Origin: Argopecten irradians
Lineage: Eukaryota > Mollusca > Bivalvia > Pectinida > Pectinidae
Assembly (NCBI RefSeq): GCF_041381155.1
Contig: NC_091144.1
Coordinates: 32,420,980-32,484,979 of the forward strand
Length of the DNA: 64,000 nucleotides
Direction: 5' to 3'
Positions 33,001-58,000 of the stretch are shown piece after piece. A model generated the notes under the pieces. It made no database searches, was not told the DNA's origin, and was given only the letters and a program-made list of their open reading frames with translations. Position 1 is the first letter of the stretch. Each line of letters opens with the position of its first letter. Made by a program: the position numbers and the translations under genes.

Positions 33001-36000
33001 CATATACTTATTTATCTGACAAATATTGCGGGCAAGTGAAAATGTCATTCGGACGAGTAGATTTTGATGAAGCACTTGTACGACGGACGAGTACATTTCA
33101 AAGTTTTTCTGTGGCCCTGTTGAGCCCTGAGCCCCAGCCCTGGGCCTTGAGCCCCTACACCTACATACCCCACAGATGATAAGACTGACCTAATTGTGTA
33201 CACCCAGAGCCCCGAGCCCCAAGCCCCGAGCCCCAACCCCTACATCAGGTTAACTTGTGTACAGTCCGCGCCCTGAGCCCCAGCCTCATACACCTACATA
33301 CCCCACTGAAGATAAGACTGACCTAATTGTGTACACCCTGAGCCCCAAACCCTCCATCGGGTAAATTGTTTACAGTCCAAGCCCTGAGCCCCAGCCCTGA
33401 GCCCATACACCTACATACCCCACAGATGATAAGACTGACCTAATTGTGTACACCCTGAGCCCCAACCCCTACATCAGGTTAACTTGTGTACAGTCCGAGC
33501 CCTGAGCCCCAGCCCACACCCCATACACCTACATACCCCACAGATGATAAGACTGACCTAATTGTGTACACCCTGAGCCCCAACCCCTACATCGGGTTAA
33601 CTTGTGCACAGTCCATGCCCTGAGCCCCAGCCCCAACCCCATACACCTACATACCCCACAGATGATAAGACCTACCTTCTGGTTGACTTGTGTACTACAC
33701 AGATGGTCCACCCATCTCTTCAATACCTCACAGCAGTCCGTGTAACCAAGGGTCGCCTACAACAAACGATCAATTCACTAAATGAAAATGCCTCTCCCGA
33801 TATGAACAATAGCACTGAGTTAGATGTTCACTATAATGTACTGTTGCTTTTGGTACTTAGTTAAACATAATTGATATTTTTATGACAACATTTTTTTTAT
33901 CATAATTCAATAACCCTGGTGAATACATGTTGCAATTGATCTCATTTAGAGAGATATTTTTAACTCAATCATTTGACCATGAGACTAGATGTGCTTGTTT
34001 TAATTTTACGGACCATCATCAGCTAATTAAGGTCCTTTAGAGCAGGCTTAAGATTAGGAAGCGAAAGGTTCCAAGTCCTCTTCATAGAGGTGGCAGAGAT
34101 TTAAACTTAAACTTATCAAGCATTCTGTTGCAATAACACAAATTGTTTTTGTGATATATTTTTTTTACATTTTAAGTTATATAATATTTTACCTTGGCGA
34201 GCCACACGGCTTGGTCCCATGCTCCGTAGGTTTGTAAGTAGCGACAGGCGTCCATACCCTTGTCAATTAAACAGAGAAGCTGAACTCCCTCTGTGGAAAG
34301 AGAATATCTCAAATTATACTTGTATATTTACACTTGCTAGACCTGTTCACTACAAGCAAATACTAGCCGAGTTTGTTTACCAGCTGCATGGTAACATTGA
34401 ACTTTGAACTTGCATATGAAAATGTTCTATGTAACGTATAGGGGCTACTTTTTTTTAGAAACACACAGCTTTGTTTACAATTTAACGCACATTACATGTA
34501 TAGTGTTGTTTTTCACAGAATTTTGGAAAAATGTAAATAATACTGGGACACTAACAGAAGTTGTGAAGGAACAGTAGTTGTGAATTAGGAACATTTGATT
34601 GTTTGCATCCCACGAAACACATTATTTCCACATAAACAAAACAATATCGTCATAAATTACTCGTCAACAGCTCCAGACATTCAAGAATCAGGACGCACAG
34701 TAGCATACAGAATCACGACTACTGTTCCGTTATGACAACTGGTTGGGTCCCAGTATATATATATAAATGGGTCCCAGTATATATATATAAATGGGTCCCA
34801 GTATATATATAAATGGGTCCCAGTATATATATAAATGCAGACATTTTTTATATCAATAATTGTATTAAAGAAACGAGAAAAATATCCCAACGAGCTAAAT
34901 TTGCTCCATATATCAATTAATCTACCATAGCACATGGCTCCCAAGGATGTAATATTGTCAAGTCAGACGACAATCTCAAACACAAGTCAGACGACAATCT
35001 CAAACACAAGTCAGACGACAATCTCAAACACATTGAGCTAGTTTGACAACTTCGGCAATTTCCATTGTGTCAGCTTCATCTCGCTGCACAATAACAGTCA
35101 CTGAGTTCACACAATAAGCCAAGTACAAATACTTAATGTAATTAAGCTTTATATATACTTTTACTAACAAAAATACATATTTAAATATCTGATCTGACTA
35201 AATAAAATTATCACTGAAAGTTATTTTGTTTGTCATGTTTATTTTACACTAAAATATTTTTTGTCGTCGCGGATGAATAATGCTACCTTATGTGAAGAGT
35301 CATTGGCTGTTCAATTGAGTAAGCTCCTCCCACTTATGACCGACTTTTATTGAATGATTACATCACTTTCAAATGACGGTATTATTGCATAGTAATTCCT
35401 CTAAGAATTTATTCAGTATGGGGCGCTAACGCGCCCAATAGAATATATTCTTAGAAAAATTGCTCCATACAAGCATGGTTAACATAAATTTGAAATCCAA
35501 TCCCTATATGAAAACTACTGCTTTTAACTCATTCACCCCTCAAATTTCATTATGGACTGGTCTAATCTTTGATTTAGAAGGGCCTAAATATGTCTTCAAG
35601 GGTGATCTCTAACTCAGTCACCACTGAAACTTCATAATGGACTGGTCTAAATGATTTGGAGTCAGTATGACTGGGTAAACCTACCTGTAAGTTTGCCGTT
35701 AGCTATGAGGTTGGTAGCCACTAGTTTGATCGTACTCTGTGATGCGCCAGAAGACCTGATACTAGCAACAAGACAGGCCCTGTAGGTAAAATGAAATCAA
35801 GAATAAATTGTACAGAAATCTGATATACTGTAAAATTTTGGATTGCTACATTTCAGGATTTCTTTAGGGGAGTGTCAATGAGAAATAGAAAGCAGTGATA
35901 AAAGAAAAGAAACATTTGTGTGAAGTGGTAACATGGAATTTATGACTAAATTATGGTACTTGAATACTGAGATGATTTAATGTTTTAATATAGTGCAACT

Positions 36001-39000
36001 AACTTTGAAGATTTAAATTTACATGATAATACTTTTATGTATTCAAATATCACTTATTATGAATATGTTTTGTTGATGAACTAGTTATGATCTTTACCTC
36101 AGACAGTCTGTATAGTACTGGTCACTCTCAGGCTCCGTCTCTAACAGTAACTGGACAGCCCGGTCAGTCTGACCCAGCATCACATAATTCTCAGCACACT
36201 TCTTTGTGTGGTCGTAAGTCGCTCTCTTACTATCATGTAAGGCCACACGATCTAACTGGTACTTCTGTTAAGGAAATATTGTTTAAAAGGTTTCACTTTG
36301 TAAAATCATAACTACCATATTTGACCCAATAAGTGCCCCCTATCTCTAAAAACTTTCCCTTTGTAAAATTGCAATAATCCACTAAATTATCTTCAAATTA
36401 AAAGCTTTTTTTTCTCTTCCCCATCCCCTTTTTTTGTTGCATTTTTTCATTTACATTTTTTTGCGGGTTTTATCATTTTACAATGATTATTATAGCTACG
36501 AAAATATAAAAATATAAACTTGATTTATTTTACATCGATTACAAAGCAAGTTATGAACTAATTAATGCAAATCACTCTCGATGGCCCGGATGTAAGCGCG
36601 CGAGGGATCTTAGTGTGGGAGGAAACAGGAGTGCCCAGGGAAAACCCACATGATCGGGCAGGTGACCCCTAACCTTTTCACGTCCGTTCCGGGGATCAAA
36701 CCCCGGACGGCTAGGTGAAAGGCGAGTGGCTTAACCAATACACCACCCAACAAGAGGCCCAGAGGGCCTGTATCGCTCACCTGGTTTGTAATGCCAAGTA
36801 ATATTCTGGATACAGGTTCATTGTTTATTTTCTGAAGAAATTTGAATATTTACCTCTAATTCCCCTATTGGGCCCCACCATTCCTGTCCCCTGGGGGTCA
36901 GAGCCAAAATTTATACAAGCTCTGTTCCCCTTCCCCAAGGATGTTTGTGGCCAAATTTGGTTATAATCCATGCAGAACTCTATGACTAGTAGCGATTTAT
37001 AGGATTTACCTTTATTTCCCCTATTGGGCCCCGCCCCTCCTGCCCCCAAGGGGTCAGAGCCAAAATTTATACAAGTTCTGTTCCCCTTCTCCCAAGGATG
37101 TTTGTGGCCAAATTTGGTCACAATCCATGCAGAACTCTAGGACAAGTAGCGATTTATAGGATATACCTTTATTTCCCCTATTGGGCCCCGCCCCTTCTGC
37201 CCCTGGGAAGTCAGAGCCAAAATTTATACAAGTTCTGTTCCCCTTCCCCAAAGAATGTTTGTGGCTAAATTTGGTTACAATCCATGCAGAATTCTATGAC
37301 TAGTAGCGATTTATAGGATTTACCTTTATTTCCCCTATTGGGCCCCGCCCCTCCTGCCCCCGGGGGGTCAGAGCCAAAATTTATACAAGTTCCGTTCCCC
37401 TTCTCCAAAAGATGTTTGTGGCCAAATTTGGTCACAATCCATGCAGAACTCTAGGACAAGTAGCGATTCATAGGATTTACCTTTATTTCCCATATTGAGC
37501 CCCGCCCCTCCTGCCCCCGGGGGGTCAGAGTCAAAATTTATACAGATTCTGTTCCCCTTCCCCAAAGAATGTTTGTGGTCAAATTTGGTTACAATCCATG
37601 CAGAACTCTATGACTAGTAGTGATTTATAGGATTTACCTTTATTTCCCCTATTGAGCTCCGCCCCTCCTGCCCCCAGGGGCTCAGAGCTAAAATTTATAC
37701 AAGTTCTGTTCACCTTCTCCTAAGGATGTTTGTGGCCAAATTTGGTCACAATCCATGCAGAACTCTAGGACAAGTAGTGATTTATAGGATTTACCTTTAT
37801 TTCCCCTATTGGGCCCCGCCCCTCCTGCCCCCGGGGGCTCAGAGCCAAAATTTATACAAGTTCTGTTTCCCTTCCCCAAGGATGCTTGTGGCCAAATTTG
37901 GTTACAATCCATGCAGAACTCTATGACTAGTAGCGATTTATAGGATTTACCTTTATTTCCCCTATTGGGCCCCGCCCCTCCTGCCCCCGGGGGGTCAGAG
38001 CCAAATTTTATACAAGTTCTGTTCCCCTTCCCCAAAGAATGTTTGTGGCCAAATTTGGTTACAATCCATGAAGAACTCTATGACTAGTAGCGATTTATAG
38101 GATTTACCTTTATTTCCTATATTGGGCCCCGCCCCTCCTGCCCCCAGGGGGTCAGAGCCAAAATTTATACAAGTTCTGTTCCCCTTCTCCTAAGGATGTT
38201 TGTGGCCAAATTTGGTCACAATCCATGCAGAACTCTAGGACAAGTAGCGATTTATAGGATTTACCTTTATTTCCCCTATTGGGCCCCGCCCCTCCTGCCC
38301 CCGGGGGCTCAGAGCCAAAATTTATACAAGTTCTGTTCCCCTTCCCCCAAGGATGCTTGTGGCCAAATTTGGTTACAATCCATGCAGAACTCTATGACTA
38401 GTAGCGATTTATAGGATTTACCTTTATTTCCCCTATTGGGCCCCGCCCCTCCTGCCCCCAGGGGCTCAGAGCCAAAATTTATACAAGTTCTGTTCCCCTT
38501 CCCCCAAGGATGTTTGTGGCCAAATTTGGTCACAATCCATGCAGAACTCTATGACTAGTAGCGATTTAAAGGAAATGTTGACGGACAGACAGACGGACGG
38601 ACGGACGGACGGACGACGGACGACGGACGCCGCGCCATGGCATAAGCTCACCGGCCCTTCGGGCCAGGTGAGCTAAAAAAATAGAAAAAATTAAAAAAAA
38701 ATAGTTTCAGTCACTGATACAACAAAATTTCTACATGGACACTTGTCCTAAATGTCCTGATGTACGATGATGATATATGAAATAAAATTGCTGAAAATAG
38801 TCATTCTTATATATTTTGTATTTGCATATTACAGAGTTATCTACCCTTGTGATTAGGTAGTGATTGTGACGTGTGATGTTGTTATCGATTGTGACATCAT
38901 TATTTTGTGAGTATTAATTCATGTCCTTTTATCTGAACAAGAATTCCACGGAAGTGGATGTGTCGCCTGCACAGCATCACAAAAAATAGTTATTTACAGT

Positions 39001-42000
39001 TGAAAATATTGTTAATAATTTAGGTGAAGAAATCAAGTTCCATAACTCTTGCAAATATTGATGGATTTTGAAAAGTATCGAACCCATCTAAGATCTCATT
39101 GATATAAAGCAATATACCAAATTTGGTTGGAATCGGACAATAAATACTAATGTTTTCAAGCGGAAGCCATGTTAGACTATTTTAAGGTCCCGTAACTCTT
39201 GCAAATATTGACAGATTTTGACCATTATTGAAGAAATCCAAGATCGCATTGATATAAAACAATTTATGAAATTTGGTTGAAATTGGACGATAAATATTTA
39301 AGTTATCGAGCGAAAACCATGGATTTTTCTGTTTTGACAATTTTAAAGTCCCGTAACTCTTGCAAATATTGACGGATTTTGACCATTATTAAACTCATTC
39401 GAGATCTCATGATATAAAACAATTTATGAAATTTGGTTGAAATTGGACGATAAATATTTAAGTTATCGAGCGAAAACCATGGATTTTTCTGTTTTGACAA
39501 TTTTAAAGTCCCGTAACTCTTGCAAATATTGACGGATTTTGACCATTATTAAACTCATTCGAGATCTCATTAATATAAAGCTATATACCAAATTTAGTTA
39601 AAATCAGACAATAAATACTTCAGTTATCGCACAGAAACCGTTTCCCGGACGCCAACGCCGACATAGCTAGTGATACCTAAGTGTCGCCCTTGCGTTGCAA
39701 GCCATACAAAAAGTAGAATCGGTACGTTAGCTCGAAAACACATCACAATGGCAGATAACTCTCTAATATGCAAAATACAGCATATATTAATAAGATGAAA
39801 ACTCAAGGAAAGGTTATTTTTAAGCCATTACAGAATCTATGAAGGAAACTATTATTATTTAAAGACGTTTTGGTGTCCAGGGCTCTTACAATAATGGACA
39901 AGGTACTAAGATTTTACCTGGAATGAAGGGGAGGGTCTTAGAACAGCATACCTGGAATGAAGGGAGGGTACAAGAACAGCTTACCGGGAATGAAGGGAGG
40001 GTACTAGAACAGCTTACCTGGAATGAAGGGGAGGGTACTAGAACAGCATACCTGGAATGAAGTGTTACTACAGATGGTATCGAAATATCTCTCCAGGGGA
40101 GGATCATTGAACAGCATACCTGGAATGAAGGGAGGGTACTAGAACAGCTTACCGGGAATGAAGGGAGGGTACTAGAACAGCTTACCTGGAATGAAGGGGA
40201 GGGTACTAGAACAGCATACCTGGAATGAAGTGTTACTACAGATGGTATCGAAATATCTCTCCAGGGGAGGATCATTGAACAGCTGCTCTACTATCTGTCT
40301 CTTAGCAACATCCTCCGGGTTGTCAAGGACGACCAGATCGCTAGTTTCCTTGGTTGGAGGAACGAACCGATCCCGTTCTCGGCTACCATTATTACCCTGT
40401 TTAAAAAACACAAGCTTCAATTTTATACTATTAAACAATAAACATACAGTCAAACCTATGTAATAAGACACACAACGGATAGACAAAAGTATTGTTTCTG
40501 ACAGATCAACTTCAGCAGTAAAATACAAGACATTCATGAAAGTGACACCACCACGCAAGGTGGAAAATATAGCCCATGACTCCTAGTTCACATGACGTAT
40601 TTTACAGCAGAACTCTCTCTCACTTTTGTGTGAATGGGGCTTGGGCCTTCAGAATTGTGAAAGTAATTACGGTATTGACCAAAATTGTGAAAATTAAAAA
40701 ATAACACCTGAAAACTTGATTTATTTCCCTTTTAATTTTCTTTTTTCCGAGAGCCCTGTACTGTTGAGTCGTAGATTGTTGTATTGTTTGTAAATTTTGG
40801 CAAAATATGCAAAACAAAATGGTACATTTTAGTTTTGCATGTCCACAGGGTTCGGCACTACATATTCCAATCAACAAAAAAACATGCCATTGTGTTTACT
40901 AGTGTCTGAAGTATGTACAGGGAACGCTTCTCTGACCAGATTCAGCTTTACAAAAATATACACATTGAGTCTGATTTCACCTTGTCATGCAAATAGTGGT
41001 CGTAAATTATATCTGGTAACTTTTGTAAGTTGGCATCAATATTTCAGATCTCTTTATGAAATCAGAATGAGGGATAGACAACAAGAAACTGAATGTGTAA
41101 TTGTAAGAACAAATGAAGTAGCCTTCATTGGCCCAGCTTTGATAACATACTTTACTACTTGGTTGCAGTTTCTCCAATTTTAGATAATGCAGCGCCACCG
41201 TCCAGAAAAGTAGGTCGGACTCGTCACCAAACAACCTGTATAATCACACAGTAAAATATCAGGCTTTTGTTTATATAGTCATGCATACTAGCAGTGTCCC
41301 AACTTAAGAATTTTCAAGCATTAAACTTTAAATAAACAGTACAAATTTAATGTCTCTTCTTTTACGAATTATCAGCCTCTTGGTCATCTTCAGGTACATG
41401 AAAACAAAAACCAGATAGGTGAAATCCATTTTAGGCATCATATCAAGAAATTCAATATGAGACATTTGTATCATTTCTCCTTCTAGAGGTTGATTGTTTG
41501 GAAAATTTATTCATTATATGATTTTATATATATATGATTCCATTATAGGAATGTGATGTAGAGAATAATTTTACCAGATTTTTATGTACATGTACTTACC
41601 TCGCCACCAGCAGACAGCGCTCAGCAGTCCCAAACCGACTGTTACCAATGTACTTAGAGACATCACTAGGAATAAGAATTTTTTAAAATAAAAGTAAGTA
41701 AACAAAAGAACCAAAAACAACACTATTTTCGCACCAAAAGTCACATCATAACAAGAAACATTCAGAATCTGGTACAACCAGAAACTTGGAGCACAGTATA
41801 ATGTACGGTACATGTATGTCATCTGAACCTGTTTAAGGCATCAAAACTGATTACATTACAACCAATGTGTCCACATTGCATGGACCTAAAGGCTTTTAGC
41901 CTTCGTCCATTATTTTTCCGTTAAATTCCATTAAATTAGTCTTTTCATATAACAAAGTTATCTCCCTTGTAGAAAGGTATTGATTGTGACATCATGACTT

Positions 42001-43028
42001 TAAGAACATAGATTACGTTTTATTCTCTGAAAATATAATGTTACATGACAAACAATCAGTACCTACCTGCAAGAGCAAGTAACTCTGCTATTTGCAAAAA
42101 TATCACATACAGTATAAACCCTCTAACTCAAACCTGGATTCCTCGAATACCCCCTATTCGTCAAACTGGTCGTACGGTCCTGAATGTGTCCCTATATAAT
42201 CTATGTAACAAAACCCCGGATAGCTCGAACAGCTATTCATCGAATACCCCTTATTCCTCGAACAGAAATATATCCCCGTTTCATCACATACATAATATTT
42301 ACTTATGTATTCTTTGAACAAGTGTTCGGCCCTTGAGATTTTTTTTACCGGTGTTACACCTGACTGTACCGACCGACATGGATAATAGCACACGGTACAA
42401 GGTAGACATAGGTATCGTTGTTTGTCCGTAACTATGCTGGTTGGTAACTAATAAAAAAAATTTTCAACTTTATATTGCTATCAAAAAACACTTTCATAAA
42501 AGAATCCAAAAGCTGAAAGTTACGGCAATTAAAATGTCATTGACATGCAATGTTTGTTATAAGGAAACCTGACATTTTGAATGTCAATGATTGGTCATGA
42601 CCAACCTCGGATAAGTCGAATATCCTGTATTCCTCGAACTATTGATCTGTTCCCCTGCTGTTCGAGTTATAGGGGTTTTACTGTAGTGGAACATGCTTAC
42701 AACTAAATCCTAGTTATAACATAGAAACATCCATTCCCTATCAAGGTTCCTATATAATGTCAGTATTGTATGAACTATGCTTATTTGTTGGTTCCCAGAA
42801 GTTCATTATAACCATGTTTTACTGTTTTACTGTTTAACTTTCCAGGATAAAAAACGTACCCATCCAGGAGATTCAGTTGGTTATTTATAGCTGTCTGTAC
42901 GTCAACGTCGTCGTCCATCATGCCCTCGAGTTTGAGAGAGTACTCAGTGTTCCAGGGCTGATGTTGGAGGAGATATTTCAGTAACAGGGAGGCTTTGTTT
43001 GTCAACATGTAGGGACACCAGAGTTGAC
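30004..43028 (-). CDS. WDR11: WDR11 exons 20-29: C-terminal helical region (residues ~865-1272)
   Basis: Exon 20 gives QLWCPYMLTNKASLLLKYLL then QHQPWNTEYSL, exon 21 GTAERCLLVAR, exon 22 LFGDESDLLFWTVALHYLKL, and exon 24 TYDHTKKCAENYVMLGQTDR then AVQLLLETEPESDQYYTD. Exon 25 gives SGASQSTIKLVATNLIANGK, exon 26 GVQLLCLIDKGMDACRYLQT, exon 27 LKRWVDHLCSTQVNQK, exon 28 SKALLVMLSLGQFPKVLEML and exon 29 FLEYARQLINLGHRKASEHY. The stop is TGA at 30006-30004. This is the TPR/COPI-like alpha-solenoid of WDR11. Exon 23 adds a charged, poorly conserved insert (GNNGSRERDRFVPPTKETSD) relative to human. Intron 23 is about 4 kb because it contains two repeat-core elements and a SINE. The last human residues (PKEEPIEE-type tail) have no counterpart. 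Confidence 0.9.
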
Positions 43029-46000
43029 CTGTAAAATACGACAAAATTATATACATTTTACAGTAACAGGATACCACTTCCTCGAGTAAATAACTCCCTC
43101 TATCCACCTGAAAACAGGTCAATATTTGTATATTAGTTAGCACCCAGGATGTCATAACTAATTAGGGTCTGATTATCAGGATAACTAGGTGAATTCTGTA
43201 TGATATTAAATTAATTAGTATGACATAATTCGACAAGAAAACATTGTATTTCTAAAACATGACTTCATAATAATATCTAAATTTTCACTGCAGCTCTACT
43301 AGGTAACCTTTACCAAGCGCACTTGGTATTCATCAGTCTATGAACTGCCATCCGCTTATTATGACATGATTTTCATTGTGACATATCAATTGTTGTGCCA
43401 GCGATCACCAAAGATGGCTGTTCAATCTTTGACAATAATGAATTCTATTTTCATTTTAGTTGTAAAATCACTTGTAATTTCTTTACAAAATTGTCATCAA
43501 ATGTAAGCATTGAATGTCTTTCAATTGGCATTGATAGCCAATATGAATGCCAACTGAAAGAAGTACAAATACACTAAAAGTACAGTTTAATTAACCCTGA
43601 CAATAATCAGTTGCCATGGTTACCTGGTAGATCCCATTCATCGACAGGACTTGTAAGGTTTTTCAGGGTGAGATCTGTGATATAGACAGCGCCATTTGTG
43701 GTAGCTAGAGCCACACGGTCACTTCCGCACCACTCGGCATCCACGATTTTAGCTATCTCTCTGGGACTCTTCACTGAACCATTTAATTCAGGCTGCAAAT
43801 ACAACAGGAAGAACTATAGGCTACAAATCTTTACAATTACAAAGCGAGGCCAAAGGGCCTTAACGATCATCTGACTATTGCATTTGGCAAAATACAACCT
43901 CAAAGAATATAGTAGTGGCAAACAAGGCCATACAAAAGAACTATCTTAATTAATAGAAGAAGTTCAGGTTCTGATATATTTGATGAATTAGACCTTGAAC
44001 GAAGGTCAAGGTCATTCATTTTTGATAAACATGGTGTCACTTGGTCCCCACCATGCTACAAGTCCAATATCAGGTCATTAGGTCTTAGTTATTCTCAAAA
44101 AGTAGTTTAAAGATTTTAGCCTATTTGAATCCTGTGACCTTGAATGAAGGTAAAGGTTATTCATTTGAACAAAATATGTAGCCCTTCATCCCATCATACT
44201 ACACGCCAAATGTCAGTTCACTGGGCCTTTTGGTTATTGAATAGAAGTTGATTTTAGCCTTTTCGACACCTTTGGCCTTGAATGGCAGTCAAGGTCATTC
44301 ATTTAAACAAAATATGTAGCCCTTCATGCGGACATGCTACTGACCCAGTATCTGGTCTCTTGGGCTCTTAGTAATTGACAAGAAGAGGTTTAAATATTTT
44401 AGCCTTTTTTGACCCCTGTGACTTGAATTAAGATCTAGGTCATTCATTTGAACAAACTTGGAAGCCCTTCATGTCAGCATGCTGCAGGCCAAATATAAGT
44501 ACCCTGCAAGGCCTTTCGAATGTTATTAGAATGAAAAGTTTACACACAGCGGCTGATGTATGGCACACAATGATGGATGATGAATTATAACTATAGGTCA
44601 TCCTGACATTCAGGTCAGATGAACTAAAAATTTAAAACAACATAAAAACTTTGGTCATTTAAAATTTGACCAACATTTGACCGCTGGTCACCTTAGTGTC
44701 TTTTATATCCCAGATGTCCACCCCATCATTGTACAAGGTAAGAAACTTGATGTTCCCACGCCCTGGGGCAAATCTGATCTTCTTTATCCAGCCTCGGTGT
44801 GTCGGCAGTGTCCTAAAAATAGAATCGTTGTCATTCAGGAATTTCGATATGATATACAAAATAGAACACAAACTTCATCTATCTTTCGCGGCTACTAAAT
44901 TCACGATTTTCGTTTCAAAGCATTTTTGACGTTGAATTGAAATACCCTTGAATTTAATTGTCCAAGAATGAAGAAGTTATCAATTCTTTCCATACTTTCT
45001 ATTTTTTCTGGATTGCGTCCTGTAAAAGGGAGGGTAAAATCCTGTCAACTATAATCGTCGATGGGGAAGAGAATAATAAAGTCTGCCATTTCTAACAATT
45101 GTTACCTGGAGGTGTGACTCTTAGTAAAGTCTGCCATTTCTTATGATTGTTACCTGGAGGTGCCACCTTTTAGTAAAGTCTGCCATTTCTTACGATTGTT
45201 ACCTGGAGGTGCGGCCTTTTAGTAAAGTCTGCCATTTCTTACGATTGTTACCTGGAGGTGCGACCTTTTAGTAAAGTCTGCCATTTCTTATAAATGTTAC
45301 CTGGAGGTGCGACCTTTTAGTAAAGTCTGCCATTTCTTACGATTGTTACCTGGAGGTGCGACCTTTTAGTAAAGTCTGCCATTTCTTACGATTGTTACCT
45401 GGAGGTGCGGCCTTTTAGTAAAGTCTGCCATTTCTTACGATTGTTACCTGGAGGTGCGACCTTTTAGTAAAGTCTGCCATTTCTTACGATTGTTACCTGG
45501 AGGTGCGGCCTTTTAGTAAAGTCTGCCATTTCTTACGATTGTTACCTGGAGGTGCGACCTTTTAGTAAAGTCTGCCATTTCTTACGATTGTTACCTGGAG
45601 GTGCGGCCTTTTAGTAAAGTCTGCCATTTCTTACGATTGTTACCTGGAGGTGCGGCCTTTTAGGTCCCAGATACACAACTGTCCATCACTATCCCCAAAT
45701 GTGATGCTCTCCCCCTTCCACGCTATACAAGATATACTACCCAGGCCCGACTGAAACAGGAAAACATTATCAAAGTACAGATTTGTTATCAGCTCTTGTG
45801 AGGACACATTTTAAAATTAATAAATTTTTTGGAAGAAAAAAAATAATATCGTAAATTCAACAGTATTTTCTTAAATCCATACATGGGTTTTGAGATCCCA
45901 AAACAATGTGGGTAAAGTACAATTTACCGTCGATTAGTTTGACCTTCCAGTGATTGTGAGGTCACAACATTCGCGCCAAATGATGATGTAACATTGACCA

Positions 46001-49000
46001 CAAGGTGGGACTAATTAACAGTAATTCTTTATGAACACACATTGTTTTGGGATCTAGAAACCCCCATATTAATCAAACATAACAATTTTAAAATTTGCCC
46101 ACAAGACATTACTTTATAAAGAAAAGAAATATATATACCATACTCGACCTAATAAGTCCCCTTAAATAATAGGAAAAAATAAGTGTGCTTAATAGAACAA
46201 TATTTAGATTATGTAACCTACAAATTATTGTACAAAGTAAGCCATAAATCAATTTGCAAAAGAAATCAAATAAAGAAACAAATTTTCAGTCTGCATTATT
46301 TCAAGGTCAGTAAAATGAGGCCCCAAAAAGGGGGAGAGGCACTTATAGGGGTGGGGTGATTATTGTTATGAATACAGTATACTTATTAATAGAATATAGA
46401 TTAATATACATTGATAATACATTTTTTCCAGTTAGTAGAAGTGTTAGTTTAAGCTTACCTCAGCAGGAATCTTTGTTGCATCGATAAAGCTAGTGCCCTC
46501 TACCACAAAATGATAAACATTTCCTTCTCCGTCAGTAAACACAAAATGTTCCTTCATGGAGACCTTCTGTACCCCCATAGGGTCAGAGCTACTGGAACAA
46601 AGAAATTGGGGTCAGAGGTGAAAGGTCATTAATTAAGGGTCGAGAACCTTCTGTACCCCCATAGGGTCAGAGCTGCTTGAACAAAAAATTGGGGTCAGAG
46701 GTAAAAGGTCATTAATCAAGGGTTAGGGACCTTCTGTACATCCATGGGGTCAGAGTTGCTGGAACAAAGAAATTGGAGTCAGAGGTGAGAGGTCATAAAT
46801 TAAGGTTCGGGGACCTTCTGTACCCCCATAGGGTCAAAGCTGCTCGAACAAAAAATTGGGGTTAGAGGTGAGAGGTCATTAATCAACGGTCGTAGACCTT
46901 CTGTACCCCCATAGGGTCAGAGCTGCTGGAACAAAGAAATTGAGGGTCAGAGCTCGAGGTGAGAGGTCATTAATCAAGAGTCGGAGACCCTCTGTACCCC
47001 ATAGGGTCAGAGCTTCTGGAACAAAGAAATTTTGATGTACATATAGGATGTTATTATCACGTATTTTGTATGTATAAATGGTCTGTTCTAACTCTGGGGT
47101 CAGAGGTGAAAGGTCATTAGTCAAGGGTGGATGACAGGTCTATCAACATACATTATTTGAATAATTGTATACATTGTAAATATGTTTAGATATTTATTCC
47201 AACTCATAATAACTTCCGACTTTCATCTCACAAAATTGAAATTATATTGTCCTTATGATGTTCAAACATTGACTATATAGTACAATTTTATTTCATCCTA
47301 GACTATTCTGAACAATTAGGATTTACAACTTCCCATGGTGCTTTGAACTCTCTCTCAATAATAAGATCTGTTCTTGATATGCCTTATTCCTACTAATGAT
47401 ATTTTGTTCAATTCCATAATGCATTGGATCTTTGCATGATGTTATGAATCTTCTAGTCATGCTTTGCAATTTCCCAAATGCCATGAACTTTCCCATATTT
47501 AATGCTTTAACTATTCCCACATTGCTGTTAGCCTTCAAATGATGCTTTGAGCTTTTTCATAATCAAACGCACCTTCCCATGCTGCTATGAGCCTTCCCAT
47601 AATACATTGCACCTTCTCATGATGCTTGGAACATTGCACCTTCTCATGATGCTATGTGCCTTCCCATAATACATTGCACCTTCTCATGCTGCTATGAGCC
47701 TTCCCATAATACATTGCACCTTCTTATGATGCTTAGAACATTGCACCGTCTGATGATGCTATGTGCCTTCCCATAATACATTGCATCTTCTCATGATGCT
47801 TAGAACATTCCCTTTATACATTGCACCTTCTCATGCTGCTATGAGCCTTCCCATAATACATTGCACCTTCTCATGATGCTTAGAACGTTCCCGATGATAT
47901 TGTAAGACTTCCCATATTACAATGCACCATCCCATAATACTGTGAGCCTTCTCATAATCAAATGCACCTTCCCATGTTGCTATGAGCCTTTCTGTAATAA
48001 AATGCACCTTCCCACGATTCTGAGAGCCTTCCCATCATGCATTGCACCTGTGCTTACCTATCAGACATCTCCTGTCCTCCAGTAGAAGTTTTAGATGTTG
48101 TCATGGCATCCGACGAGGATTTTGACAATATCCCATCTCCTTCCTTGTCAGACTCCGCCATGGTCTGAGCCAGTAGTTTACGTTTTAATATCTTCAACGA
48201 ATGTGACGGTGACCACTCGAGGGCGGTGGGGCGTGGAATGCTCTTCCCCATCTCTCGTAGCATTGTCAGACTACGGAGATCCCAAAGCTCCAGGGGCTTC
48301 TCTTTGAAACAGATGACAAAATACTGCCTGTTGGGAAACAGAAAGGAATGAACACAAGTTTCTATAGAAATCATTCTTTGATGAATTAATCAGTACAAGA
48401 CTTGCTGCTAATGTTTCTTCATATCTAAATATGTCAAACTTCTAATAATATCACTAGCACAAGCTAAATTTATAACAATGCCTTGTCAAAACTTTGTTTT
48501 TTGTTTAATTCTCATTATGACATTTACTACTTATTAGACTAAATTATGACTTATATTACAGTGATCCTCCAATAATATGGACGCTGATGGTATGGAAAAT
48601 TCTCACTCCCGACAGAAATGTTAGGAAATGAATTACCATAAAGTGGCAAAGTACACAAAATTTGGTAGTCTGGAAACTTTGTAATCCAAATGTTTTAGGC
48701 TGAGATTGAAGGTGTCCATATTATCAAGGGTTTACTGTATACATTTTGTTTTATTAAGGGTGTATTTGACACTCCTTTTCTTCTTCTTAGTAATGTGCTA
48801 TCAAATCCACCACTGATGGATGTGCAAGAGTAAATAACTCTGTATGTGCCACAGACTTACTTGAGATAAGAGATTCTGAGGAGTTCTATTGGCGGTTCAT
48901 GGTCATGGTTGTTACGTAATGTTGTTAATTTCCCTGTAAAATAAGCAAGTGTTCATATGTTATAATCAGCTAAATAGTTTGTCATTAAATGTTTAAAAAA

Positions 49001-52000
49001 TAAAAATGTAACTTTTTGTCATTGGTAAATGTATGGAAACATTTAATGGGGCTCGGGCAATATCTAGAGAAATATTACACCTTTGGGTAAATAAACCTTC
49101 ATATTACACTGCCACTGGGGCAATAAATGTATAATTATAATTTGAAACTCTTATTTCTCATAATTTTAATCTGTGCATATACAACTGATGTAAAGTAATT
49201 TTCTTTAATTTAAGTAAACGTCTTACCAGACAGGACGTCTACCATGAAGAGCTCATTCTTGACCAGTCCAGTCTGACCAGGGTTGGGATAGGAGAAGGAC
49301 ATGAAACTCTTCAAACTTGACCATTCAATGCCTCTGTAATGACCACAAAAAATATATACAGGTTGTGTTAGAGAATTACAAAATACAAAATTGTTTGATA
49401 TCGCTTCATGAAAGCAGTAGCTCCTATAACCACGGAAATGTTTTTTTAGGTCAGACAGAAAATTAATTCATCTGCCATCAGGTCAACCTTTCCGGTGAAA
49501 ATTCAGTAATCAATGTTACAACAGGACTCAGGATCCTGAAATAGACTGAAGTCCAAAACGACCTTAATTTTAAACTCAGCCAATCAAAGATGATGTTATA
49601 AACAGTTACAGTATTCATGATTGGCTATGTCAAAGAACTTTTCATGAACCCAGAGCCTGATCACTAGAACATAATATTTTGATAATTTCATCATATACAT
49701 TATGTCATCTGATTAACAGCTAATTAACATCCTGAAACACGTTCAAAGCTTAAATGAACTTATTTTCTTGTCTCTGGGATATGATTATAATGCATGTTCT
49801 CATTAGGATTTTCGTACCTGACAGGTCCAGCGTGCACGCTGTATTCTCGTTCAATCTGTCCACTTGACACATGAAGTATCTGTATAGTCCCGCTGTTACT
49901 GCCTACAACACAAGGTTAAATATTGTATTACAGTCGAACCTGTCTAATTAGACACCTCTAGGGACAGTGATTAGTGATTGATTAGTGTCTAATAAGACAG
50001 GTGTCTTAATATACAAGTAATCACTAACATGAGGTATCTTTATGGTCCCGCCTACAACACAAGGTATCATACAGTCAAACCTGTCATAGTGACCACCTGC
50101 TTAATAAGACCACTTTTCTAGGGCTTCAAATGACCAATTTTAACACATTTCACACATGGGAATGAAAACAACTTTAATATCTGGATACAAAAAAAAGAAT
50201 TCATGCATTCTCCCCATCCCTACCTGATCACTCAATCTGATCTGTCAGGTGACTTCATTTCAAAAAAACCTTATCCTATCTCATCTGGAAATTGAACTAA
50301 TGTAAAACAACTTTCTTTCATGGCAACTAATTTTTGCAATTTCCATTTCCAGTTACTGAAGATTAACATTTGCTAGTTTAAATTTGAATGGAAATTCCTG
50401 TCAAACTACCAATGTCTGTAATACTGAAATGTCCTACCTCAGTCCAGTCGTTTACTATAATTTGCTATAACCAACCTAAATGTACTTGCCTATGGCCAGC
50501 AGAGGTTGATAGATACTCCAGTTTTTGGTAGTGAGAGGCGGACACATCCTGACTACTGTTATAGGAGTGGAGACCCCGCTCATCAGCCCTGTCATCATAA
50601 ACTTCAGGGCCACACCCTTCCCCAGCTGGAACGCCTGGTTATCAGGGGTCATGACCTGTGATTGACCAATCATATCACAGAGCGAGAGTTTGGGAGGAGC
50701 GACGTCTGTGATCACTGGTAGTTTCTCGGTAGTACTGAGTTTGGAGATGTCTTCTGGTATAGAGGACCCTGGCGTATGGAGAGGTGAGTGACTGTGTCGG
50801 CCATTGTGTACCTGTTAATGTTATCAAATACACATGCACTGTAAGCTTCGAGACGCTGTTTTCCTACTTTGATTCAAGGCTATTAAATTTCAAGATTTTA
50901 CATTTCAAAACAAATTTGCAAGATGCAAAGATTACTGTTTGTGGATTTAAAAATTGTATGGGGATTCATATCAATTTCTGTGATGTTGTAATCAATACGT
51001 GGAGATTAACTTTCGCTAATTTACCAAGGTACATGAATTGAAATAAAATTTATGGAAATAAATCACACACAAAAGAAAGTTGGTTTACAGTATACCAAGA
51101 AGTCATATTTATATGATCAACATATTCATTTTTTTATTGAACATAGACATTTTGGCTGCTAATACAAAGAATTAACATCCTAAGAATATACAGTAAAACC
51201 TCGTTAGACAAAATTGTTGATTGAATTTCACATATAAATCAGACTGCAGTGTATTAGATCTTTAAACTATAAACGCACAGTACATATTTTGGCGGTAAGC
51301 AAACTTTTGTTGGTTTGTTTTTTGGCGCCAGGCATTTTGCACTGAAATATGTTTATGCTATGTTGTAAGCAACAGCAATTACTACAAGTGTACAAATTCT
51401 CCTCTGCGCTAACCTGTTCAAAATCTAATTTGCGATCAAATTTTGTTTGCACCAAAATCAGTATGTTCAAAGTATTTAGTGGGTAGTCCCCTTATTGGAC
51501 CAACAAAATACTTCTTATTAAGTCAAGCATTCTAGCTATATAATGAATTAAAGATAATGAGCTGTTCAACTATTCCATCTTTACAAATTACAGAGTTACC
51601 TCCCTTGCCAGTAGGCATTGATTGTGACGTCATTATTTTGCGAGGAAAACTCACATCGTTTTCACTGGAACGTATTAAGTTTTGATTGTGACGTCATTAT
51701 TTTGTTAGCGAAGCTCATGCAGGTTCTCTAAAAAGTATGAATTTACCATGCAAACATATGACGTCACATTCAATACCTACCCGCAAGGGCAGATAACTCC
51801 GTAATAAATGCAAATAAATAATATTTTTACTTGATTCAAGAAATGTTTTTTCATTGAGTAATACACACCATGGGTTCCATCATCAACATTTCCCAGAAAA
51901 TCACACGGCTATCTGTCATGATCAGGACAACAGATCGTTCAAACATAGGACAGCAGGCGATGCCCACAACCTTACTGTGTCTCGTCACACGTAGGCTGTC

Positions 52001-55000
52001 AGACTGACATCTCATGTCGTACGCGACGTCCATAGACACATGGGGAGGGGAATCATCTGTACCAACCAATGGTATAACTCTCATAAAGGTGAATTTAAAG
52101 TTATATGAGCCGTAATTTTCATATTCATGAAACCAAAAAAAGCGTTAAGTATGTTATTAGCCACCAAAAGTAACGGTTTTAATTTTACATGTACAAGTAA
52201 GAGTTCAAAATGAATTTTGGCTGTACTGCAGTGAAATGTATACATATGGTCAAACCATGAAACCAAGTTGTGGTCTACAAAATTGTAAACTGATTATGAC
52301 TGAAGTGCTGAAGCAAAATGCCTGTATATTTAAATTGAACTAGTCCTACAAGTAAATTTTTGGGGTTTACTAGCCTAAGTCCAAATGGCTTTTAGTGATG
52401 TGAAATAAAAAAGATTAACTTGAATTCTTACACAGGGAAAAATATTTTAGAAAATGAGATAATTTTGATAAAATCCTTTTTTTTGGTAGGATTTAAATTT
52501 TGAAGACAATTCAACCTAAGTTCATATTAAGTTAAATACTTGAAACATAGTACAGAATGTATGACTACCAAAGGCACCGACTCCCTCCGATGCGGGTGTG
52601 GTGATAACGTTGGTCTTCCTCCTCACTCTCGTCGTAATGCTGCCGTTCTCATGTAAGCATAGCATGACGTCTCGCTGTCGTAGTGGTAGAACCTGTAGAA
52701 AACAAACATTTCTTATGTGAACTGTAAGGTCCTTATTTAAATGCGTTAAGCAGTAACAATGTAAATATAACACAGTTGACATTTCCTAAGAACATATAGA
52801 TATCTAAAATGACCAGAAAATCAAAGAAAAACTGGAAATTAGTCTTCAGATCACAGGAGATTTCACATCAGTACCGGTATTACAAATGGTGACTACTTGA
52901 GTCGACTATACACATGGTAACCCTATAATCTGTATGAACTCATGTGTATGGTTAACCTATTCAAATATGGATGGTGACACTATACGAACGATGAAGCCTT
53001 TCTTGTACAAGTGGTGTGACCGCTAACATATACAAATAGTGACCCCTTACCTATACATATGGTGACCCCTTTCCTGTACAAATAGTGACCCCTTACCTGT
53101 ACAAATGGTGACCCCTTACCTGTACAAATGGTGACCTCTTACCTGTACAAATAGTGACCCCTTACCTGTACAAACAGTGACCCCTTACCTGTACAAATGA
53201 TGACCCCTTACCTGTACAAATGGTGACCCCTTATCTGAACAAATGGTGATCCCTTACCTGTACAAATGGTGACCTCTTACCTGTACAAATGGTGACCCCT
53301 TACCTGTACAAATGGTGACCCCTTACCTGTACAAATGGTGACCCCTTACCTGTACAAATGGTGACCCCTTACCTGTACAAATGGTGACCTCTTACCTGTA
53401 CAAACGGTGACCCCTTACCTGTACAAACAGTGATCCCTTATAATTACCTGTACAAACGGTGAGCCTGTTTCTCTCCATGGTTGTAATGCAAACGGTGACC
53501 CCTTACCTGTACAAACAGTGACCAATTTCCTGTACAAATGGTGACCCCTTACCTGTACAAATGGTGACCCCTTACCTGTACAAATGGTGACCCCTTACCT
53601 GTACAAATGGTGACCCCTTACCTGTACAAATTATGACCCCTTACCTGTAAAAACAGTGACCCATTACCTGTACAAACGGTGACCCCTTACCTATACAAAG
53701 GATGACCCCTTACCTGTACAAACAGTGACCCATTACCTGTACAAATGGTGACCCCTTACCTGTACAAGCGGTGACCCCTTACCTGTACAAATGGTGACCC
53801 CTTACCTGTACAAATGGTGACCCCTTACCTGTACAAGCGGTGACCCCTTACCTGTACAAATAGTGACCCCTTAACTTTACAAATAGTGACCCCTTACCTG
53901 TACAAATGGTGACCTCTTACCTATACAAATGGTGACCCCTTACCTGTACAAACGGTGACCCCTTACCTGTACAAATGGTGACCCCTTACCTGTACAAATG
54001 ATGACCCCTTACCTGTACAAACGGTGAGCCTGTTCTCTCCATGGTTATAATGCCGACTGTCTGGTTGATCTCAAGGTCGAGGAGAAGGATCTCCCGAGGG
54101 TACACTAGGATTAGATGATGACGACACGCCCGGTGAAACTCCAGCTGTAGACATTCATTCAAGGTCACTGACTCCTCTTCTCCAGACCTGTGTGTAGACA
54201 CATTATGTATTTGGCAGAGTCCATAAAGATTCAAATTGTTACCGTATTCAACCCAACAATCACCCCATCCCTATAAGTGTCCCTCCACCTTTTTAGGCTT
54301 CAATTTGACTTACTTTGACTGCAAATTATGAAAACTATGTAGATCTCCTTACCGATGTCTTTTGCCAATTGATATATATATATGGCTTGCTTTGTAGAAT
54401 AGTTTGATATTTCCTTCATTTTTCATGCACCCTGAGCACTTATTGGGTCGAATATGGTATGTTCTTTTCATATCATGTTCATCAATCTACAACAACTCAA
54501 CAGACAAAAAAATTCACATACCAGAGTAGTTATCAAAGCCACTCACTCCCGTTCAAACTTTTCAAACAATGTGTCTGTTTTGCGGAAACAAATTCTGCAG
54601 TATCTGTTTTTTGTAAACTTAAGTAATATGATCTTACCTTTTGCTTGAAACTTCTCCAACAAGCATTTTACTCATCCGTTTGGCGAGGTTGCGGGAAGTT
54701 GACTTTTTGTCCAAACTGCTACTGGAGCCTTCAGCTTTGATGTTTGAAGCTATAAAGATAAATTCAGAATAAAATATAATATCGAAATACAGGATTTCTT
54801 ATTTGACATGGTGCCACATCATTAAATGAGTTTGTCTCTTCATCAAAGTAAGGAGAAGCTGAGCAGCTAATTTTTTAAACTTGGGAAAGAGAGTTTAAAG
54901 AGATGAGGAGGTGCATTTCTTACTCTTACCTTGATTTGAGGGGCTAGAGATGTAAAACTTCTTGCCATTACTCGAAGGCGACAGGGGGTTTTGTAGGGGG

Positions 55001-58000
55001 TGTTGTAGGGGGTTTTGTAGGGGGTGTTGGAGGGGTTGGAGGGGTGTTCAGAGTATAAAGAGATGCAATTCTTACTCTTACCTTGACTTGAGGGGCTAGA
55101 GATGTAAAATTTCTTGCCATTACTGGATGGTGTCTTTGTGATTGAGAAGTCGTCCACAAACACAATGCAGTCTTGGCCGAGAACTAGAAAATACAAACGT
55201 TAATTCAATATATTTCCAATACTAATTTTGATTTGAAACAATAGATAATGCCTGAACAATTACAACAATACATTTGAAGTAAAACTGACATCTGCATAAC
55301 ACATTTACAAAAAGATAAAATCAATTTAACATACTGGTACCATATTTGCCATAATAAGCACCCTGGGGGCTTAAAAATTCATAACAAAAGGACGTTTATT
55401 AAGGAACCAAAATGTATATGTGTTATTAATTCACATGTAAGAAACCTCTAAAAAATCAGCTATATTTTAACTCTTTCTGTACTCACAGCATATTAATCTG
55501 TCACATTAAACAAGCATATGCCATATTTCCTTTAACTGATACCCATTATAATGTTGTCATCACATATGGAAGACAGGCAAGTTCATGTAATATGTGATAC
55601 AATGCTGATGTTATAAGCATCACAAGTTGTATAACATTTTTAAGTCCATACGATGGGATGTGGGGGTGTGGGGCGTTTAATCATTTAGATGAATTCAACT
55701 CCTTATCCAGCAGAGGAAAGGGGCATATATAGAGGGAGAGGAGATAATTACAGTGAATATGGTAATATCTCCTATGAATATTCATCTGTGGTTCCATTAA
55801 TACTTACATGCCACATTTCTAATGTTGAACGGATCAAATGAGAAAGACAAGAGAGGTTCTGTATAGGATTTCTTCCACAATTTTGTTCCGGTGTCAGCGT
55901 TCCATAATATCAGTGAATACGGGGGATGTAGTGCCACCAGGAGGTCGTGTGAAGCATCCTGATTGGACAACCATTCCAGATCTGATCCAATCAAAACAAA
56001 CATTATCAGAAATATTAGTAATCAGGGGGTAGGACACTTTGATAAATGAAGACATTTAGGTATATTGTATCTCCCTGAACACTATAAGGTACTTAGATTT
56101 CATATACTAGGCTCTGATTTCTGGAAACAAAATTGCAGTCGTCTTCGGTCAAAACTTGAGTTTTTCTCCTTATGTGACTTACATGAAAATTTTGTAACAT
56201 AAGTAACTTAAGTTTATTTCGAAAAATTGGCACCATCTACTACTTGCAATAAGGCTTAGGAATTTACTACATGTAACCTCAATCTCAAATTGACCAAATT
56301 TCATCAAAATAGAATTAAATTAAACTTTTCACTTTCAGGCAAGACTTCTAACCCGAAATGGATCAGAATGTCACATAAGTTTGAACAGATGTCCTGAGTT
56401 ATAGTCTCAGTAAATCTTGGTTAATTTTTGGGTCAGATTATAGACCTGTTAATACAAGATTTATTAAAATATGTAAAAATACATTGTATCATATATTTGC
56501 TATCCTGTATTTGCACATGAAGAGTTATCTGCCCTTGTAAGTAGTTATTAATTGTGACTTCATGTATTTGCAGGCGTAACACAATGATTACTAAAATGGT
56601 AGGTCAAAATATGACTTTCACCCACAAAAAAATGATGTCACAATCACTTAAATGGTAGGTCAAAATACCTACCCACAAGGGAGATAACTCTGTAATATGC
56701 AAAGACGGTATAACAGTTACTTCTCACCTTGTATAGGTCTCTGGCCATCTGAGAACTCGGCTTTAGACTGACCCTGAATAACATCCCATGTGATGATGAC
56801 GCCGCTAGCGTCTGCCGAAACAAGACGAAGGTTGTACGGACTGCTCGTGTCATGGTTATAGTTCTCTCGAGCCCATTTCACCTTAAATACACAATTTCAT
56901 GTAAATCATCCATTATTTTCATTGAGTTTGAGGAGAAAAGTTTCATTTTCCAAATTTTGCAATCTGACTTCAAGATTACACATGAGTTTATATAATTAGC
57001 CATTCTAATCTCTGGGACTATATATATGTATGTCAATGTCCTGTGAAATCGCAAAAATATCATCATCACCAAAATAACAAGCTGTACATCATTTATTTAA
57101 GAAAGTAGAAAAATTTTAATATCATTAATGATTTGTATTCTAGAAACTGCATCCTCATTTGCAAGGGATTTCATTTTCAATTTTGTAAACAGTATAAAAT
57201 ATTATGGTCATACTTTAGAATTTGTTTTAGAAAAGGTTCCACCATCTATTTTGTTAAGCATTCTATTTACTGTAAATTGACTGTAAGAGAAACTACAGGT
57301 AAATAGCATTTATACTTCTTCATAAAAATTTTAAGTGAGTATTTCTTTTCAGAGAATTTCCTTTAAAAGTTATAGTCTTACCTTAACAACATTTGACTTG
57401 TGTTTGTCTAGAACTTGAATCACCTTTAATAAAAACAATAGAAACGTCAATAAAATAAATGACATATGAGTTTGACTGTTTTTGAAATCATGTCAACAAA
57501 TATATAGCTGTTTTTGAAATCATGTCAACAAATATATAATGTATGTAAAAAAGTATTACTCAAGACTGAACATTAAAATTTGTACATATATCGGAAAAAA
57601 AACTAGTTCTAATGGAAATTAGATCAGTCGGTTTTACTGTGATATGCATGAAATGCCCATGATGGTGACATGTGTGTGAAATGTTCTAACTCGCTCGCTG
57701 TCCGCCATTACACATTGTGGTCAAACTTCTTGTATGCCGAACCCTGTCCCTTGCTCGTAGAGTAATGCAATTTTTGTCTAGAACTGCTCAAATCGCTCTG
57801 ACGGTAGTGTGTTTACCTTGTTAGGTGAATTGTCTTGCCTAAAAATCATTTTATCACCTTCTCAGTGGTTATGTAGTTCATTTGTTTAACGTGCGTGCCT
57901 TTGACTCGGGTATGCGTACAGCGTCCATATTGTACCTGCTTAATCGTATTGATCAACGATTTGATATTTGAACGATATTAATTAAAATACTTAACAATGT

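Follow-up and report, generated by a model that had tools for sequence, protein, structure and literature searches.

Probable mirage minisatellites across splice junctions of WDR11 and other genes in the scallop Argopecten irradians

In amphioxus, tandem repeats called mirages span exon-intron borders, 5' as well as 3', and two reports describe them in Adh3 and the globin genes BflGb6 and BflGb9 (PMC3087553, PMC3902484) and, in one of the two, also in troponin C and PGBD5 (PMC3902484). According to the same reports, their units are 10-160 bp long, many of the copies carry the AG/GT signals, and normal splicing is reported to survive them (PMC3087553, PMC3902484). In human segmental duplications, internal tandem repeats occur at exon-intron boundaries, are variable in recent paralogues and can generate novel introns (PMC2812944), and the Rogers model, as cited in the amphioxus work (PMC3087553), derives intron gain from tandem duplication of AG/GT sites. 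Here we describe junction-spanning minisatellites in the WDR11 gene of the scallop Argopecten irradians, on a stretch of 64,000 nucleotides (NC_091144.1, positions 32,420,980 to 32,484,979; hereafter the window) that sits on a 43-Mb contig of an 846-Mb assembly with 1508 contigs. In a muscle myosin exon of the same assembly (locus L002), residues 5-105 match the PDB myosin heads 1dfk and 1dfl without a difference; 1b7t, 1kk7 and 1qvi score equally and 2os8 and 2ec6 lower, the first group being from the bay scallop and 2os8 from another scallop. The finding is of the known mirage kind and is a new occurrence in a mollusc. The first-pass annotation of the window, which knew of no described system of this sort, was wrong in this respect, as the amphioxus mirages are of the same kind (PMC3087553, PMC3902484). 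No mollusc description of junction-spanning minisatellites turned up in literature searches, most subscription papers being outside their coverage. We consider it probable (roughly 0.75) that the WDR11 arrays are mirage minisatellites, that is, mostly harmless recurrent mutation and not a new splicing device.

The gene was found by tblastn with a human WDR11 sequence (match on the minus strand, E 1.35e-133) and was assembled exon by exon from the window sequence. Its joined exons give 1276 codons with no stop in frame; seven codons precede the first ATG of the model, and exon 29 as modelled ends a few codons before the stop. Because the exons join in frame over these open codons, the splice junctions are fixed, and the exon numbering of the first-pass annotation matches the rebuilt 29-exon model. 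The intron borders are GT-AG with the sole exception of exon 11, which has a GC donor (ATAG/GCAAGT; window 50488-50490). Moreover, the joined frame stays open without any copied border. The gene and the repeats at its junctions are given below, the copied splice sites being called decoys.

30016-61625, minus strand: WDR11 gene, 29 exons with exon 28 present twice; start and stop approximate (tblastn E 1.35e-133)
55082-55183, minus strand: exon 6 (WDR11 model)
54912-54972, minus strand: a single additional copy of donor junction 6 (43 bp of exon plus 18 bp of intron) at an offset of 152 bp (23/24 at +152, homology extent; edges calculated from the offset)
54013-54187, minus strand: exon 8 (WDR11 model)
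53016-54027, minus strand: 23-bp array across donor 8, with GT in 36 of 41 decoy units (Tandem Repeats Finder, TRF; unit count; sequence)
46459-46591, minus strand: exon 16, acceptor at 46591, 46588 being in frame too (frame test, 12 AG positions)
46559-47031, minus strand: 83/84-bp array across the exon 16 acceptor, 5 near-copies, AG kept in 4/4 full units (TRF, 24-mer test)
45644-45750, minus strand: exon 17 (WDR11 model)
45077-45663, minus strand: 49-bp array across the exon 17 donor, 11 decoys, GT in 11/11 (TRF, unit count)
40220-40396, minus strand: exon 23 (WDR11 model)
39915-40283, minus strand: 33/34-bp array inside a 168-bp higher-order repeat, across the exon 23 donor, 7 decoys, GT in 7/7 (TRF)
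33676-33756, minus strand: exon 27 (WDR11 model)
33203-33671, minus strand: 118-bp array beside donor 27, splice site degraded (TRF, alignment)

Five of the 54 WDR11 junctions have a near-copy (9/58 if the exon 28 duplication described below is included) in a test that uses 24 bp across each junction, 12 of exon and 12 of intron, and accepts copies with at least 19/24 matches within 1.5 kb. Donor 8 has 39 near-copies, donor 17 has 11, donor 23 seven, acceptor 16 five and donor 6 one, which makes 63 over the five junctions, and in a separate count of units 59 of 64 decoys retain GT or AG, among them 55 decoy donors with GT (36+11+7+1). The repeat homology extends 15-64 bp into the exons. At exon 16 the frame is kept only by 46591 and 46588 among the 12 AG positions tried, and the repeat therefore takes in about 30 bp of this exon. 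One unit of the exon 8 array, near 53480, holds a longer stretch of exon 8, and in the exon 23 array the final 64 bp of that exon occur once more, so that duplication must have struck these borders repeatedly. In the alignment of the 118-bp array, one half-unit matches the intron side of donor 27 and the other its exon side, and the copies of this array fail the 24-mer test. The first-pass annotation had seen arrays spanning the edges of exons 6, 8, 16, 17 and 23 and probably 27; this holds for donors 8, 17 and 23 and for acceptor 16, and in degraded form for 27, but exon 6 has one extra copy and no array. Its view of the arrays as independent events agrees with their differing unit lengths and sequences, a single acceptor (16) is indeed involved beside donors 6, 8, 17 and 23 (and 27, degraded), and the more than 60 decoy sites it proposed come to about 60 in both counts.

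Other features of the gene were recorded alongside. Exon 28 is duplicated entire at an offset of 1052 bp, which accounts for four of the nine copied junctions; the coding sequences of exons 28a and 28b (window 30511-31707) are nearly identical and 145 bp each, so that a transcript with both would change frame. By eye, the neighbouring intron copies differ in many single-base indels, which may be due to divergence or to faulty assembly or polishing. The exon 16 acceptor reads CAGTAG (46588-46593) with both AGs in frame, and an acceptor wobble of one residue is possible. A 40-bp array (47532-48049) begins about 9 bp into the intron after donor 15 and excludes the junction, and a 157-bp array of 11 copies (36848-38573) takes up a large part of the intron that follows exon 23. 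Two arrays with units of about 138-146 bp, at 20251-22053 and 44066-44496, apparently have unit sequence (CTTGACCTTCATTCAAGGTCA) in common on opposite strands (by eye), suggesting that they belong to a family of dispersed repeats that also grow in tandem.

Junction arrays are a habit of this genome and not a trait of WDR11. Control loci were obtained by a genome search for exons of kinases, kinesins, myosins, SNF2 and ABC proteins. It yielded 494 matches, of which 396 were used to define 225 candidate regions, and from these the 25 densest in exons were sampled, chosen for exons and not for repeats, unlike WDR11, which was chosen for its arrays. The 25 loci contain 110 of the matches (45 kinesin, 36 myosin, 25 SNF2, four ABC and no kinase), and filtering by splice score retained 86 acceptors and 90 donors, giving 176 predicted junctions. 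Near-copies are found at 13 of these 176 (acceptors 5/86, donors 8/90), with up to 13 per junction and with at least three copies at 5/176. For instance, an SNF2 donor in L018 has 13 copies, kinesin acceptors in L005 and L006 have 11 and five, and a kinesin donor in L013 has seven. Three weak members were kept in the counts, namely an acceptor and a donor in L023 (12 bp of homology in total and 22 bp, respectively) and donor 4778 in L002 (28 bp), and these matches may be chance or paralogous-exon similarity. The idea that WDR11 is unusual is not supported by this comparison, its frequency being like that of the sample (5/54 against 13/176, Fisher p 0.77; for junctions copied three or more times, 4/54 against 5/176, p 0.22), and a bias of donors over acceptors is not supported in the pooled junctions (12/117 against 6/113, p 0.22). 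The introns of WDR11 are repeat-rich in any case, with 20.7% of the gene under TRF arrays; in the 250-kb sample of other genic loci the share is 12%, and in a single 10-kb locus it climbs to 47%.

Several arrays outside WDR11 can be placed beside identified exons. The array of L017 continues a SMARCA/ISWI-type exon (exon match 5.9e-20), that of L031 adjoins a sepiapterin reductase exon (1.9e-9), and that of L027 lies next to an exon that is probably from a guanylate cyclase gene (Pfam E 1.6e-4, 21.8 bits against a curated cut-off of 21.9; PDB best 0.087). Both L031 and L027 belong to a set of seven donor arrays taken blind near the beginning of contig C1. Another of the seven, L033, terminates a plausible open frame with no significant family match (best E 0.077), and an exon was not seen at the remaining four, where L028 and L030 lie within longer repeats, L029 is unclear and L032 stops before the array start. 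At L031 (G000:C1:5519400-5520300) the 35-bp array is satellite-like and runs for about 6 kb from the sepiapterin reductase exon to about C1:5526225; this large array may stem from a splice junction.

Since an array grows yet was born only once, our null model counts founding units. In the sample, near-copies at junctions exceed the expectation (13/176 or 7.4% against 2.5%, p 0.0006), as do junctions with at least three copies (5/176 or 2.8% against 0.77%, p 0.012), in a test that favours junctions because conservation of the authentic exon copy keeps it recognisable for longer. Clustered TRF arrays, represented by their smallest or best unit, give seven founding events against 3.3-4.1 expected (p 0.05-0.12), and a first version that lost the L018 junction to a redundancy filter gave six against 4.1 (p 0.23). 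For WDR11 itself, the TRF test gives four against 2.0-2.8 (p 0.14-0.31), with donor 27 uncounted as its array ends 4 bp short, and the near-copy test gives 5/54 against 5.7% (p 0.19), and, where three or more copies are required, 4/54 against 2.3% (p 0.037). The junction copies of WDR11 are above chance as sequence similarity, and hardly so as frequency in the gene. Founding-weighted coverage by distance around 230 junctions has no border peak. A plain comparison of coverage hinted at a depletion of junctions (5/54 against 422 of 1500 random intronic WDR11 positions with local copies, p 0.0016; 13/176 against 360/3000, p 0.07); it was dropped as the main test because a long array is counted many times in it, and the founding-unit tests point the opposite way, more weakly. 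An excess of array births at junctions compared with other sequence is therefore no more than suggested, with p from 0.0006 to 0.23 by method.

Motif counts are stronger evidence than the founding tests, but less direct. Within 314 kb, the donor consensus MAGGTRAG forms five arrays, the most among its 3360 letter permutations (mean 0.19); they lie at WDR11 exon 8, at recognised exons in L017, L018 and L026, and in L012 without a recognised exon. As a single word it occurs at 60 places in the same 314 kb, against a permutation mean of 29. Genome-wide, three donor octamers in tandem triples have 6707 (CAGGTAAG), 3491 (CAGGTGAG) and 3295 (AAGGTAAG) matches (mean 4498), whereas seven scrambled or reversed octamers have 386, 318, 1017, 1562, 929, 1258 and 2600 (mean 1153), so that donor triples are on average about four times as frequent as controls, in numbers that count matches and not arrays, some arrays yielding dozens of matches. 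Counted by hand among the first matches listed, the array density per Mb is about 0.77 for CAGGTAAG (5 arrays), 0.17 for CAGGTGAG (12) and 0.28 for AAGGTAAG (3), compared with about 0.05 for the control GAATGGAC (11), 0.06 for CAGTGAAG (3) and 0.10 for CAGGATAG (16), and the first CAGGATAG array, at C1:1266271, is also a CAGGTAAG donor array. In the 314 kb, the three donor words occur 10-23 times outside arrays and 13-34 times inside them, and five control words 5-14 and 0-2 times, respectively; word abundance therefore accounts for only part of the donor excess. The earlier suggestion that arrays keep starting at exon edges stands in a weaker form, as they recur in other genes and donor octamers are over-represented in tandem, but whether births at junctions exceed those of randomly placed arrays varies with the test used (p 0.0006, 0.012, 0.05-0.12 or 0.23).

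The WDR11 arrays are best explained by local tandem duplications whose founding units would have happened to contain an exon-intron border. After the first duplication, one intact border would stay beside the exon and the extra copies would fall in the intron, an arrangement that should be tolerated provided that splicing uses the site next to the exon and the remainder leaves with the intron. The copies may subsequently have expanded and been homogenised by slippage or unequal exchange, slippage being the presumed mechanism of array growth, and misspliced RNA would be removed by nonsense-mediated decay. The authentic site is probably the one used, judging from the intact frame and the amphioxus mirage papers, and we read the decoys as tolerated passengers. 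This reading is supported by the anatomy of the arrays, by their recurrence in other genes and by the read-through stops near donors 8, 17 and 23. Past these donors a stop is reached after 24, 1 and 45 bp, respectively (after 212 bp at donor 6 and 144 bp at donor 27), so decoy use at exons 8, 17 and 23 would mostly truncate the protein. Moreover, five arrays cut at their own period show as much variation at splice-signal positions as at the others (odds ratio 0.80, p 0.25), and the largest array, at exon 8, has no difference between signal and other variation (22/369 against 37/574, p 0.89).

Some results weigh against mirages as purely accidental and unconstrained structures. Over all nine variable arrays the signal positions vary less than the others (odds ratio 0.61, p 0.005), and they do so in the single arrays of L013 (p 0.009), acceptor 16 (p 0.047) and L018 (p 0.048) and nearly so at exon 17 (p 0.052), which weakens the claim that decoys are unconstrained. 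The nine-array test gives p 0.056 without L013, and an odds ratio of 0.80 (p 0.29) without both L013 and acceptor 16, where unit ends are poorly aligned; the case for decoys being retained because of a function is weak and mixed. The array excess of donor octamers and the near-copy founding result (13/176 against 2.5%) likewise put strain on a purely random origin, and a hotspot component in array birth may exist.

Splice junctions, donors above all, could be minisatellite hotspots with several-fold more births, for example by strand slippage linked to transcription or to the spliceosome; we hold this tentatively, at somewhat less than even odds. The genome-wide octamer means (4498 against 1153), the first rank of MAGGTRAG among its permutations and the near-copy (p 0.0006 and 0.012) and clustered TRF tests (seven against 3.3-4.1) argue for it. 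However, near-copy detection is biased towards junctions, the TRF founding test is not significant and gave p 0.23 in its first version, MAGGTRAG itself is twice as common as its mean permutation, the genome-wide figures count matches and one control array is a donor array, and no border peak appears around the 230 junctions. Furthermore, one of the five MAGGTRAG arrays is the original finding, L012 has no recognised exon, and an exon is absent at four of the seven blind donor arrays. That 5' splice sites are the preferred birthplaces of minisatellites here, with perhaps hundreds of genes holding rows of full-strength decoy donors, is a possibility we would not bet on, though a substantial one.

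It is unlikely, by comparison, that the donor rows are functional, whether by binding the U1 small nuclear ribonucleoprotein (U1 snRNP) or as alternative donors that tune WDR11 dosage via nonsense-mediated decay. The 55 GT decoy donors are mostly as strong as the authentic site (decoys scoring at least as high: 31/41 at donor 8, 11/11 at donor 17, 5/7 at donor 23 and 1/1 at donor 6, with 0/4 at acceptor 16), and the lower signal variation over nine arrays would fit a function. However, the latter leans on L013 and acceptor 16, the exon 8 array shows no difference, the junction arrays sit in different genes with different units, and amphioxus mirages are reported not to yield aberrant mRNA (PMC3902484). 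The earlier proposal that the decoys bind U1 snRNP in rows is not supported so far, as conservation is absent in the five arrays and appears only when poorly aligned arrays are added. Least probable of all, and very improbable in itself, is an assembly or polishing artefact that multiplied the junctions: the intron indels between the exon 28 copies would suit it, but copies in the arrays differ by substitutions, unit lengths differ between arrays, and similar structures lie on several contigs.

Rows of near-identical donors beside a real exon offer a ready test of first-site choice, be it by transcription order, exon definition or U1 competition. If donors are indeed the birthplaces, the genome would be a natural experiment on a spliceosome choosing one of dozens of near-identical sites, and should the genome-wide excess prove true, minisatellites would arise from donors in this lineage and supply material from which exons could be extended and introns gained.

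Compared with the described systems, the scallop arrays resemble the human repeats in being minisatellites at exon-intron boundaries (PMC2812944); those repeats vary among recent paralogues in segmental duplications and can generate novel introns. They share with the Rogers model duplicated segments that carry splice signals, but the scallop copies lie within introns that already exist, and the reading frame is open with the old borders, although a copied border may be in use. The amphioxus mirages are closest: in both, the unit spans the border (in WDR11 at donors 8, 17 and 23 and acceptor 16, with 27 degraded and a single copy at exon 6), 5' and 3' borders are both involved (in WDR11 and in the sample), and copies keep splice signals (59/64 units in WDR11, the exon 27 copies not scoring). 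Length instability among alleles and in somatic cells and undisturbed splicing are reported traits of the amphioxus mirages, the scallop arrays being known from the DNA of one assembly. In contrast to amphioxus, the scallop arrays occur in a mollusc, at eight loci besides WDR11 (L005, L006, L013, L017, L018, L026, L027 and L031), reach 41 decoy units at one junction and come with a genome-wide motif count; it is this genome scale of donor-octamer arrays that may be new.

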